Source: Cognatilysobacter lacus (GTDB lineage Bacteria > Pseudomonadota > Gammaproteobacteria > Xanthomonadales > Xanthomonadaceae). Taken from it: a stretch of 33,100 nucleotides of DNA. The notes under the pieces were generated by a model. The model searched no databases, had not been told where the DNA came from, and saw only the letters and a program-made list of their open reading frames with translations. The number at the start of each line of letters is the position of its first letter. Positions within the stretch are counted from its first letter, which is position 1. The stretch covers positions 1-33,100 of the forward strand of contig NZ_VTRV01000011.1 of assembly GCF_008274655.1 (NCBI RefSeq), in the 5' to 3' direction. The position numbers and the translations under genes were made by a program. Below, in pieces: positions 6,641 to 10,497 of the stretch.

Positions 6641-6799
6641 ATGCAACGTCCGCAGCGTTTCGGGGTTTTCCTTGCCATCGGCATTGCGATAGGCGTCGCC
6701 ATCGGGGCGGCGATGCACAACATGGGCGTTGGCGTAGGAATGGGGGTCGCCCTGGGCGTGGTGCTGTCGACCATTGCCGGCCGTCGGGGCGGGACCTGA
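6641..6799 (+). CDS. Small glycine-zipper membrane peptide (52 aa)
   Basis: ATG 6641 is preceded by GGAG (6631-6634) at good spacing and gives 52 residues starting MQRPQRFGVFLAIGIAIG. The middle is almost wholly hydrophobic with glycine every fourth residue or so (GIAIGVAIGAA, then GVGVGMGVALG), the pattern of glycine-zipper membrane segments that pack closely or oligomerise. The tail TIAGRRGGT is basic. I expect one or two membrane passes, with the break at MHNM. The stop overlaps the folP start by one base (TGATG), so the two are translationally coupled. I do not recognise a named family; similar unnamed peptides occur in Xanthomonadaceae. The function is unknown. Confidence 0.72.
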   Translation: MQRPQRFGVFLAIGIAIGVAIGAAMHNMGVGVGMGVALGVVLSTIAGRRGGT

Positions 6800-7698
6800 T
6801 GTTCGACACTGCCCCCGCGCTCGACTGCGGTGGCCGCCGGCTGGTGCTCGACGTGCCGCGGGTGATGGGCATCGTCAACGTAACGCCCGATTCGTTTGCC
6901 GACGGTGGGCAGTCTTTCGACACCGGAGCGGCGATCTCGCGCGGCCTGCAGCTCGTCGACGAGGGCGCCGACCTGCTCGACGTCGGCGGCGAATCGACGC
7001 GGCCCGGCGCCGAGGCGGTGTCGATCGACGAGGAACTGAGCCGCGTCATTCCGGTGATCGCCGCGCTGGCGAAACGCACGGGCGTACCGGTGTCGATCGA
7101 TACCTCCAAGCCCGAGGTGATGCGCGCGGCCGTGGCGGCGGGCGCGGGCATGATCAACGACGTCTACGGGTTGCGGCGCGAGGGTGCGCTCGACGCGGCG
7201 GCGTCGCTCGGCGTGCCGGTGGTGATCATGCACATGCTCGGAGAGCCGCGGTCGATGCAGGACGACCCGCGCTACGAAGACGTGGTGGCCGAAGTGCATC
7301 GCTTCCTGACCGAGCGCATCTTCGCGGCCGAGCTGGCCGGTATCGACAAGAAACGCATCGTGATCGATCCCGGCTTCGGTTTCGGGAAGACGCGCGATCA
7401 CAACCTTCAACTCCTTGCGCGCCTGCAGCGGTTTACGGAGCTCGGCGTGCCGGTGCTCGCCGGTCTGTCGCGCAAGCGGACGATCGGCGAGGTCACCGGA
7501 CGGTCCGTGCCGGCGGAGCGCGCCGCAGGCTCGGTCGCAGCGCATCTCATTGCGGCGCAGAATGGCGCGCGCATCGTGCGGGTGCACGACGTGGCCGCGA
7601 CTGTCGACGCGATCAAGGTCTGGAATGCCGTCGTCGCGCAGCCGGTGCCGCGCGTCGCAGAGGCGAAGCCCACGATTCGTTGGCCGGACGAAGACTGA
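6799..7698 (+). CDS. folP: Dihydropteroate synthase
   Basis: FolP condenses p-aminobenzoate with 6-hydroxymethyl-7,8-dihydropterin diphosphate to make dihydropteroate, the sulfonamide-sensitive step of folate synthesis. The product is 299 residues, slightly longer than the E. coli enzyme because of its tail. TIM-barrel landmarks are in order: MGIVNVTPDSFADGG (loop 1), LLDVGGESTRPGA, VPVSIDTSKPEV, GMINDVYG, VIMHMLGEPRSMQ, VIDPGFGFGKT and the pABA-side GLSRKRTIG. ATG 6799 overlaps the stop of the glycine-zipper peptide. In E. coli folP also follows ftsH directly; the peptide is an insertion in that arrangement. No clear terminator follows; a T6 run at 7803-7808 lacks a good stem. Confidence 0.96.
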   Translation: MFDTAPALDCGGRRLVLDVPRVMGIVNVTPDSFADGGQSFDTGAAISRGLQLVDEGADLLDVGGESTRPGAEAVSIDEELSRVIPVIAALAKRTGVPVSIDTSKPEVMRAAVAAGAGMINDVYGLRREGALDAAASLGVPVVIMHMLGEPRSMQDDPRYEDVVAEVHRFLTERIFAAELAGIDKKRIVIDPGFGFGKTRDHNLQLLARLQRFTELGVPVLAGLSRKRTIGEVTGRSVPAERAAGSVAAHLIAAQNGARIVRVHDVAATVDAIKVWNAVVAQPVPRVAEAKPTIRWPDED

Positions 7699-8094
7699 GC
7701 CAAGCCTCCGCACGTTAGGGCGCGGCATGGCGGAGGCGCGCGGCGCGTGCCGGTCCAGGCACTGCGCCCGTTCGTCGCTGCTTGGCTCCTCGCGTAACTG
7801 CGTTTTTTGCGCCGCTGTGGTGCGCCAACGAATGGCGAGATCGCCCTCCCCGCGCCGGGCCGAGGCGCGCACGTCCGGTTACCCACACATCCTGTGGATA
7901 AGCCTTGGGCAGCGGCTGTGGATAAGCGCGTCGCGAAGCGCCACGGCCGCATGGGGCTTTCATTGGCCAAAGTTTCGCCATGCCGATGCGCATGGCTCCG
8001 CGCGACCGCGGAGGGCCGCACCCGCCCGCAACGGATCGCGTCGCCCGGTCGCTTGCCCCACACTTCGGGCATCGCTTCCTGCCGAAGGCCACAC
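7699..8094. other. Non-coding gap between folP and the permease gene
   Basis: About 396 bases without a credible gene. The left half has GC-rich imperfect repeats and a T6 run (7803-7808) with at best a 3-bp stem, so it is not a confident terminator. The middle holds the DnaA-box cluster at 7879-7925. The right half has the palindrome TTGGCCAA (7963-7970). An AAGG about 7 bases before ATG 8095 serves the permease. I see no clear -35/-10 pair. Confidence 0.6.
7879..7925. promoter_or_regulatory. Cluster of DnaA boxes (two perfect, one with one mismatch)
   Basis: TGTGGATAA, the exact complement of the consensus DnaA box TTATCCACA, occurs at 7893-7901 and again at 7917-7925. Both lie in a longer direct repeat CTGTGGATAAGC (7892-7903 and 7916-7927), 24 bases start to start. 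TTACCCACA at 7879-7887, one mismatch from consensus, lies in opposite orientation and forms an inverted pair with the first box across 5 bases. Three boxes within 47 bases of intergenic DNA are unlikely by chance. DnaA binding is inferred. It could regulate the permease gene, titrate DnaA, or be a relic. dnaA, dnaN and an AT-rich unwinding element are all absent, so this is not an obvious oriC. Confidence 0.6.
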
Positions 8095-9516
8095 ATGACT
8101 TCCTGGCTCCGCCGCAAGGACATCGACCGGATCACGGTGCATGAGGAAGGCCGACGGCTCACTCGCACGCTCGGCTGGCCGCATCTCGTCGCGCTCGGCA
8201 TCGGCGCGATCGTCGGCACCGGCATCTACACGCTGATCGGCACCGCTGCAAACCTCGCGGGTCCAGCAGTGCTGCTGTCGTTCCTCGTCGCCGGCATCGT
8301 CTGCGCGTGCGCCGCGCTCGCCTACGCCGAGATGTCGACGATGATGCCGGCCGCGGGCAGCGCCTATACCTACAGTTACGCCGTGCTCGGCGAGGGCGTC
8401 GCGTGGATCGTCGGCTGGAGCCTGATCCTCGAGTATTCGCTCGTCGTAAGCGCGGTCGCCGTCGGCTGGTCGGGCTCGGTCGTGGAGTTCATGCGAGGGC
8501 TCGGCGTCGCGGTGCCGCAGGCTTTGGTCAGCGGTCCGCATGCGGGCGGGCTGGTCAACCTGCCGGCGGTGCTGATCGTGTTCGCGGTCGCGGGTTTGCT
8601 GATGCTGGGGACGCGGGAGAGCGCGACGCTCAACACGGTGCTCGTCATCGCGAAGGTGCTTGCGCTCGCGGTGTTCGTCGCCATCGCGCTGCCGCATTTC
8701 GACGCGGCCAACCTGCACCCGTTCATGCCGCACGGCTTCGCGAAGTCCACGGGCCCGGACGGCAAGGAGCACGGGGTGATGGCCGCTGCCGCGATCATCT
8801 TCTTTGCCTTCTACGGATTCGACGCGATCTCGACAGCCGCCGAGGAAGCGAAGAACCCGGCGCGCGACCTGAAGATCGGCATCATCGGTTCGATGGTGGG
8901 TTGCACGCTGATCTACGTGGTGGTCGCGCTCGCCGCGGTGGGCGCGATGCACTACACGGTATTTGCGCAGAGCCCTGCGCCGCTGGCGCTGATCATGCGC
9001 GAGATGGGCGAGGGCGGGGCCGCGAAGATCGTCGCCGGCGCGGCGGTGGTGGCGTTGCCGACGGTAATCCTGGCGTTCTTCTACGGGCAGAGCCGGATCT
9101 TCTTCGTGATGTCGCGCGACGGGCTGCTGCCGCGCGGATTGTCGAAAGTCAGCGTGCGCACCGGCACGCCGGTTGCTACGACGATGTTCACCGCCGTCAT
9201 CGTTGCTGCGCTCGCCGGTGTTGCCCGGCTCGACGAGATCGCGGCGCTCGCCAATGCGGGCACGCTCGCCGCGTTCATCGCGGTGGCCGCCTGCATGCTG
9301 GTGCTGCGTCGCCGGGACGCTGCGCGCGCGAGGGTATTCCGGGCGCCCGCGGCATGGCTCATCGGGCCGGTGGCGATCCTCGGCTGCCTCTACCTGTTCT
9401 GGAGCCTGCCGGATCGCACCAAGGTCTGGTTCCTGATCTGGAATGCGATCGGCGTGGTCGTCTATGTCGTCTACAGCCGCCGCAACAGCCAGCTCGCGCG
9501 CGGACACCATGCCTGA
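8095..9516 (+). CDS. APC-family amino-acid permease (YfnA/CAT type)
   Basis: This 473-residue inner-membrane protein has about 12 hydrophobic segments. The cytoplasmic N-terminus reads MTSWLRRKDIDRITVHEEG, and the first membrane helix carries GIGAIVGTGIYTLIG, the broken-helix substrate motif of the APC superfamily. Further hallmarks are YAEMSTMMPAAGSAYTYSY, FFAFYGFDAISTAAEEAKNP and GQSRIFFVMSRDGLLP. These match the cationic amino-acid transporter-like YfnA group, probably amino-acid/proton symport; the exact substrate cannot be read from sequence. ATG 8095 has an AAGG ribosome binding site and the family N-terminus; the open frame extends further upstream without family character. The DnaA-box cluster lies 170-216 bases upstream. 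miaA follows after 27 bases. Confidence 0.92.
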   Translation: MTSWLRRKDIDRITVHEEGRRLTRTLGWPHLVALGIGAIVGTGIYTLIGTAANLAGPAVLLSFLVAGIVCACAALAYAEMSTMMPAAGSAYTYSYAVLGEGVAWIVGWSLILEYSLVVSAVAVGWSGSVVEFMRGLGVAVPQALVSGPHAGGLVNLPAVLIVFAVAGLLMLGTRESATLNTVLVIAKVLALAVFVAIALPHFDAANLHPFMPHGFAKSTGPDGKEHGVMAAAAIIFFAFYGFDAISTAAEEAKNPARDLKIGIIGSMVGCTLIYVVVALAAVGAMHYTVFAQSPAPLALIMREMGEGGAAKIVAGAAVVALPTVILAFFYGQSRIFFVMSRDGLLPRGLSKVSVRTGTPVATTMFTAVIVAALAGVARLDEIAALANAGTLAAFIAVAACMLVLRRRDAARARVFRAPAAWLIGPVAILGCLYLFWSLPDRTKVWFLIWNAIGVVVYVVYSRRNSQLARGHHA

Positions 9517-9543: not shown

Positions 9544-10497
9544 GTGACAGCCGACGCCCGCCCGCTTGCCGTCGCACTGATGGGCCCGACCGCCTCGGGC
9601 AAGACCGCATTGGCGATCGACTGGGCGCTGCGATTCCACGGCGAAGTGGTGAGCGTTGATTCCGCGCTCGTCTACCGTGGGCTCGACATCGGTGCGGCCA
9701 AGCCGTCGGTCGACGAGCGCCGTGGGGTCGCGCACCACCTGATCGACATCCGCGAACCCTGGCAACCGTATTCCGCCGCGGAATTCGCCGCGGATGCACT
9801 CGCCGCCGTGGACGCGATCGTGTCGCGCGGACGCCTGCCCATCCTCACCGGCGGCACCGGCCTGTATTTCCATGCGCTCCTGCACGGCCTGTCGCCGATG
9901 CCCGAAGCCGACGCAAGTGTTCGTGCCGCGATCGAGCGGGATGCGTCGGAGCGCGGCTGGGCCTCGATGCATGTCGAGCTCGCCGGCATCGACCCGGAGG
10001 CCGCGAGGCGCATACATCCGACGGATGCGCAACGCATCCAGCGCGCGCTCGAGGTGTGGCGGGTCAGCGGTCGCAGCATCACCGACTGGCGCCGTGAACG
10101 GCCGATGCAGCGTTTCCCGTGTCGCGTCCTCAAGATTGTCGCCGCGCCCGCATCACGCGCGGTCCTGCATGACCGCATCGAACAACGTTTCGACGCCATG
10201 CTCGACGCCGGCTTTCTCGACGAGGTGCGCCGCTTGCGCGCGCGGCCGGAACTCGCCGCGCACCCGCGCCCGCTCGACCTGCCCGCGATCCGCGCCGTCG
10301 GCTATCGCCAGGCCTGGGAGCATCTCGACGGCGCATTCGAAGCCGCCGAGCTGCGCGAGCGCGGCATCCACGCAACGCGCCAGCTCGCCAAGCGCCAGCT
10401 CACCTGGCTGCGTGGCGAGCTCGACGCGGTCACCGCCGACCCGTCGCTGGATCGGGCCCGGCTGGAGGCGCTGATCAGCGGTTTCCTGCGGCGCTAG
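9544..10497 (+). CDS. miaA: tRNA dimethylallyltransferase MiaA
   Basis: MiaA transfers a dimethylallyl group to N6 of A37 in tRNAs that read codons starting with U, the first step towards ms2i6A. The 317-residue product has the P-loop GPTASGKT (14-21), then [19 protein letters not shown], the [15 protein letters not shown] segment and the C-terminal [13 protein letters not shown] and [12 protein letters not shown] motifs. GTG 9544 gives the usual short lead-in before the P-loop. An ATG at the methionine of LMGPT would cut into that motif, so I reject it. miaA-hfq-hflX-hflK-hflC is the conserved gammaproteobacterial order. A 12-bp tandem duplication abuts the start. Confidence 0.97.

Follow-up and report, generated by a model that had tools for sequence, protein, structure and literature searches.

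A DARS-like module of DnaA boxes and an AT-centred inverted repeat behind folP in Cognatilysobacter lacus

Our analysis points to a compact module at 7868-7989 (minus strand) in the window, by which we mean the whole stretch of 33,100 nucleotides of Cognatilysobacter lacus DNA that was analysed (contig NZ_VTRV01000011.1, positions 1 to 33,100). We read it as a DnaA-reactivation module of the DARS1 type, which stands singly here and forms tandem arrays in some relatives, and we put the probability of this reading at roughly 0.55. Read along the minus strand, the module opens with an AT-centred inverted repeat, followed after 37 bp by a DnaA box, after a further 15 bp by a second box and after another 5 bp by a third box of opposite orientation; it measures about 120 bases and its spacing is rigid. 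The element probably serves the timing of replication rather than acting as a switch for the permease gene next to it. In the papers found, the recharging of DnaA has so far been worked out in E. coli. DARS-like sequences are already known to be conserved in many proteobacteria, both DARS1-like and DARS2-like ones according to an excerpt of PMC10380432, and it is the variant of the module that appears to be new.

The original prediction described three clustered DnaA boxes, and their coordinates, a 12-base repeat, a 24-base distance and an opposed pair were all reproduced; correct as it was, this description took in just one end of the larger conserved element. Box I (7879-7887, plus strand; TTACCCACA, one mismatch) has the position and orientation of E. 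coli DARS1 box I and is opposed to box II (7893-7901, minus strand), which is an exact TTATCCACA. The two are separated by 5 bp and their starts by 14, the same distances as in E. coli DARS1. A third strong box, again an exact TTATCCACA, is located 24 bp from box II (7917-7925, minus strand), and each exact box is held by one copy of the repeat CTGTGGATAAGC (7892-7903 and 7916-7927, copies 24 bases apart). At 12 bp from box II, where DARS box III is placed in E. coli, there is a degenerate site with mismatches at six of nine positions (7905-7913, minus strand).

Upstream of the module lie ftsH and folP, the gene for dihydropteroate synthase (6799-7698, plus strand; Pfam Pterin_bind, E 1.9e-86), which is the upstream neighbour in all folP loci compared. 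Downstream lie an amino-acid permease gene (8095-9516, plus strand; Pfam AA_permease_2), which is a variable neighbour and has its start codon about 105 bp beyond the end of the module, and miaA (9544-10497, plus strand; Pfam IPPT). The boxes are indeed remote from dnaA, which is located on contig C146, outside the window; with its position between folP and the permease gene, this places the module outside oriC. Across the genome as scanned (2,855,702 bases in 301 contigs, 91.87% complete), exact TTATCCACA occurs four times, as often as the reversed pattern. Two of these sites are in the window, one (C146:12962) is near the dnaA 5' end and one (C116:1659, locus L254, own contig) is a lone box without the module. 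Sites with at most one mismatch number four in the window, a mildly high count that is reached in 5 of 100 shuffles, and the unusual property is the clustering of the boxes rather than their number. A search of 7650-8150 for a sigma-70-like promoter found none and is little informative, because shuffles likewise gave none; in a search for hairpins, the module folded no better than shuffles (z -0.74).

What is conserved besides the boxes? We considered 33 modules, namely the one in the window and 32 from folP loci of Lysobacteraceae-type genomes, the latter chosen by their three boxes alone in a scan that left out 13 loci, which either duplicated other entries or belonged to E. coli. Aligned on the boxes, these modules share three features, given here by their distance from box II: an inverted repeat (-80 to -64), a patch (-49 to -45) and a weak box (-12). 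None of these features had been used in choosing the modules, and the conservation of the inverted repeat is counted in support of the preferred explanation. In the window, the inverted repeat is TTGGCCAAAGTTTCGCCA (7963-7980, no strand), with one mismatch to the Fis core consensus; it keeps a near-fixed register in the family, being displaced by one base in three of the 33 modules, the window included. The letters of the spacers vary between modules, and spacing and sites stay. At the 12-bp position, 14 of the 33 family modules have three mismatches and none has fewer; at the 24-bp position all 33 have at most three, which was a selection criterion for 32 of them. Of 30 class-level hits, which represent 26 loci, 27 have a box with at most three mismatches at 12, the spacing of E. 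coli DARS1. Hence, in modules of the folP type, the strong third box seems to have moved outward by one 12-bp step.

The 33 sequences make up the sequence model R1, and a control model, R2, has the letters of R1 reversed at equal sequence number and information content. A further model, R3, was built from 23 class-level modules outside the family, leaving out L261 (same order) and L269 and L275 (near copies); its modules were picked with R1, so that the two models are not independent in their choice of sequences. The window module matches R1 with 54.2 bits (E 2.2e-14 per genome), a score to be read with the window being one of R1's own sequences, and R3, which contains no Lysobacteraceae, recovers it with 34.7 bits (E 1.4e-9). 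Within the family, R1 matches are present in 234 of 247 genomes and in 51 of 54 genera, at 1 to 13 per matching genome, and no match anywhere was seen in the other 13 genomes. In a draw of Gammaproteobacteria that includes the own genome and three others of its family, with eight candidates scored per genome, R1 matches 203 of 377 genomes and 153 of 271 genera, and R2 matches one genome in a draw of equal size. The E-values come from a shortened calibration, and it is thus the contrast between R1 and R2 that carries the argument.

Dense clusters elsewhere in the genome and loss of the boxes in close relatives are among the outcomes that the original prediction had named as speaking against it. 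By R1, the own genome holds a single match and hence no further cluster. A strict pattern, which fixes the distance between boxes II and I at 14 and lets the distance from box II to a third box range from 10 to 33, is found in six of the eight genus genomes, and in all six the third box lies at 24 despite the range allowed; all eight carry at least one R1 match somewhere. The strict pattern was found in none of 387 other family genomes searched, and the same spacing with changed letters occurs in other genera (among the best 80 of 269 folP loci, in named genomes). Conceivably, the boxes could have come together by chance, or could represent a recently spread repeat without function, as might be thought from a box number in the window only mildly above that of shuffles. 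This is already contradicted by the comparison, given the identical spacing in six of eight genus genomes and the ratio of 203 class genomes to one for the reversed control, and varying spacer letters between constant sites are unlike a recent copy; we consider it exceedingly improbable.

The relation to known elements was explored in six 50-kb stretches of E. coli (300 kb in total) chosen for DARS1, DARS2, oriC, datA, priA and folP, where the rppH-mutH stretch (2.97 Mb) is what we take to be DARS2 and the stretch after glyVXY is the presumed place of datA. The sole R1 match at E up to 10 is DARS1 (NC_000913.3 813100-813200, 25.3 bits, E 2.4e-6), and R2 has no match in the same 300 kb. R3 ranks DARS1 first (31.8 bits, E 2.2e-8), the rppH-mutH stretch second (17.2 bits, E 7.7e-4) and the stretch after glyVXY, by a weak match, third (E 0.013), and it touches two further weak places in the DARS2 stretch and one place at E 1.6. 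The oriC stretch is matched by neither model, and R1 has no match in DARS2, in the 50 kb expected to contain datA or at E. coli priA. The suggestion that the site resembles a DARS of E. coli has thus gained weight, because DARS1 is picked out of 300 kb that hold oriC, DARS2 and presumably datA as well.

E. coli DARS1, located between bioD and uvrB, has its boxes I and II separated by 5 bp and its box III at 12 from box II. The window module shares with it the opposed boxes I and II with their 5-bp gap, a third box oriented as box II and an intergenic position. It differs in its neighbours, in a third strong box at 24 rather than 12, in the 1 to 13 R1 matches per matching family genome and in an inverted repeat that is complete in the window, whereas E. 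coli DARS1 has the right half alone. The R1 match to DARS1 may exceed the opposed box pair, for which there is modest support: 2 of 5000 shuffles equal the similarity of the DARS1 flank, but among 17524 positions in two E. coli loci, 98 exceed it. The match covers 101 bp, which is the length given for DARS1 in an excerpt of PMC5742627. As far as excerpts of two papers go, the head-to-head box pair is characteristic of DARS and essential for it, being required for the release of ADP, with box III as a helper (PMC10380432, PMC5742627). An opposed-box core plus Fis sites is also a trait of DARS2 in the excerpted sources (PMC5742627, PMC8682772), the core of which is tied to relatives of E. coli in the part available of PMC4245941. 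Unlike the window module, DARS2 has IHF sites and a length of 455 bp; the best match to the IHF consensus TAAnnnnTTGATW in 7699-8094 has three mismatches. Like datA, the module groups DnaA boxes in non-coding DNA at a distance from oriC, but datA depends on IHF and arranges its boxes differently (PMC5742627, in excerpt). Given the six mismatches of the window at 12 and its exact box at 24, we call the module DARS-like and do not file it as a DARS.

Are the modules behind folP a means of holding DnaA? Among the best 80 of 269 folP loci, R1 matches lie behind folP in 19, and 61 are without one. Six folP loci (L062, L069, L083, L115, L117 and L120) contain tandem arrays of four to five modules, which in several Lysobacter-type genomes separate folP from miaA (at 4901-5641 in L069), and nine matches were counted in one locus of genome G165. 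A titration sink made of many strong boxes could take up much DnaA at such arrays, and the touch of R3 (E 0.013) on what is presumably datA would agree with it. Such a sink, however, needs boxes alone and neither rigid spacing nor an opposed pair nor a near-fixed inverted repeat; moreover, R1 finds nothing in the 50 kb meant to hold datA and one match in the own genome. We therefore judge a sink unlikely and prefer a reactivation module of the DARS1 type.

The genes downstream of the folP module vary among relatives and comprise the permease, miaA, a sodium:solute symporter and a gene next to a fatty-acid desaturase frame. In several relatives that have retained the module, tblastn detected no permease in the interval from folP to miaA, and in all of the roughly 15 Xanthomonas-type loci listed folP almost abuts miaA with no R1 match. 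The proposal of a DnaA-regulated permease promoter found no support, as relatives keep the folP module in front of miaA, the symporter or other genes, and we reject a permease promoter as the main function. More generally, the module could be a promoter element, controlled by DnaA and its partner, at which box-bound DnaA represses or activates whichever gene adjoins it. This is conceivable for the permease gene, which starts about 105 bp past the module, and for priA, which lies beside the module in many genomes. Against it stand the constancy of the folP copy while the downstream gene changes, the orientation of the module relative to folP, which differs between genera, and the folP arrays, which comprise four to five modules in each of six loci and follow no obvious promoter logic. 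We regard such promoter control as doubtful.

Modules at priA are indeed recurrent. Of the 26 class-level places fetched outside the family, a sample biased towards the best-scoring ones, six have priA beside the module (L270, L271, L274, L276, L277 and L288) and two have rpmE, in E. coli the divergent neighbour of priA. Within the family, priA adjoins the module in 15 genomes and 17 loci, two pairs of which are the same place; these include L226, L231, L237, L238, L243, L244, L248, L250, L252, L257 and L258, and Pfam confirms four of the priA-adjacent loci. The family copies at priA have exact boxes I and II and a weak box at 12, and R3 also recovers priA modules and folP arrays. Within open-licence papers, nothing was found on the element in Xanthomonas relatives or at priA; Fujimitsu 2009 is reportedly the reference given for DARS outside E. 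coli. In the flanks of four Xanthomonas-type loci, Pfam names two genes, catalase and prephenate dehydrogenase. A dispersed module in genome G013 (L225) lies just 3' of the catalase gene.

How might the module promote DnaA reactivation? We envision a scenario whereby DnaA would bind to the opposed pair and release its ADP there, the resulting assembly being made more stable by the third strong box. The inverted repeat would bind a dimeric, DNA-bending partner, for which Fis is the leading candidate, and this partner would help or time the assembly; the module may in turn affect initiation. The DnaA of this genome retains D269, R285 and L290 as well as the DNA-contact residues of domain IV that were checked, but R227 is replaced by Q and V211 by M. 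DARS1 depends on D269 of DnaA according to an excerpt of PMC5742627, and, as a point against the scenario, it is reported to require no protein factor in what is available of PMC4585315. Fis is encoded in the genome (NF001659, 104 bits versus a cut-off of 99). Of the 33 modules, 25 carry the Fis core GNNYANNNNNTRNNC with no more than one mismatch at a single fixed register, as compared to 1.4% in random sequence of 60% GC. In the window, the core has one mismatch and is one base off that register, and the gap between folP and the permease gene holds two perfect matches to the loose consensus elsewhere, so that the call of a Fis site in the window on its own is weak. A position at which the Fis consensus wants A or G is C in 18 of the 33 modules, and another dimeric protein is thus possible.

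A farther-reaching idea, which we advance tentatively, is that DARS1 was reduced from a composite element spread over the Gammaproteobacteria, with an inverted repeat (class consensus TGGTCA-AT-rich-TGACCA, near-fixed in register) as partner site, an element that recurs beside priA and forms arrays with a shifted third box at folP in Lysobacteraceae. If this were true, each chromosome would have several stations that recharge DnaA with the aid of a bending protein, and recharging would be linked to the gene of a restart helicase, priA. The model provides candidate recharging sites in the 203 of 377 sampled Gammaproteobacteria, with a partner site half-kept in DARS1, and it lets the place and manner of DnaA reactivation, and its differing copy number and position, be examined in other bacteria.

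The modules also appear to have a preferred direction. Among 37 single-contig genomes, four had no match (G069, G104, G175 and G191), and the remaining 33 yielded 182 matches, or 171 after 11 antisense overlaps were dropped, which collapsed to 114 loci; 19 matches from seven unclosed genomes were excluded. With most genome lengths rounded and the terminus taken as opposite dnaA, 89 of the 114 loci are directed against the replication fork, with the inverted repeat on the terminus side, and 25 with the fork. Many of these loci are orthologous, which makes the true sample small: 18 loci from three genomes represent 10 groups, nine of which are directed against the fork (two-sided binomial about 0.02, calculated by hand). 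We take the fork-opposed polarity as a lead only. As a separate observation, genome G035 (L020, 2932-2982) has a three-box cluster with 16/26 spacing that directly follows a permease gene and precedes a terminator-like hairpin.
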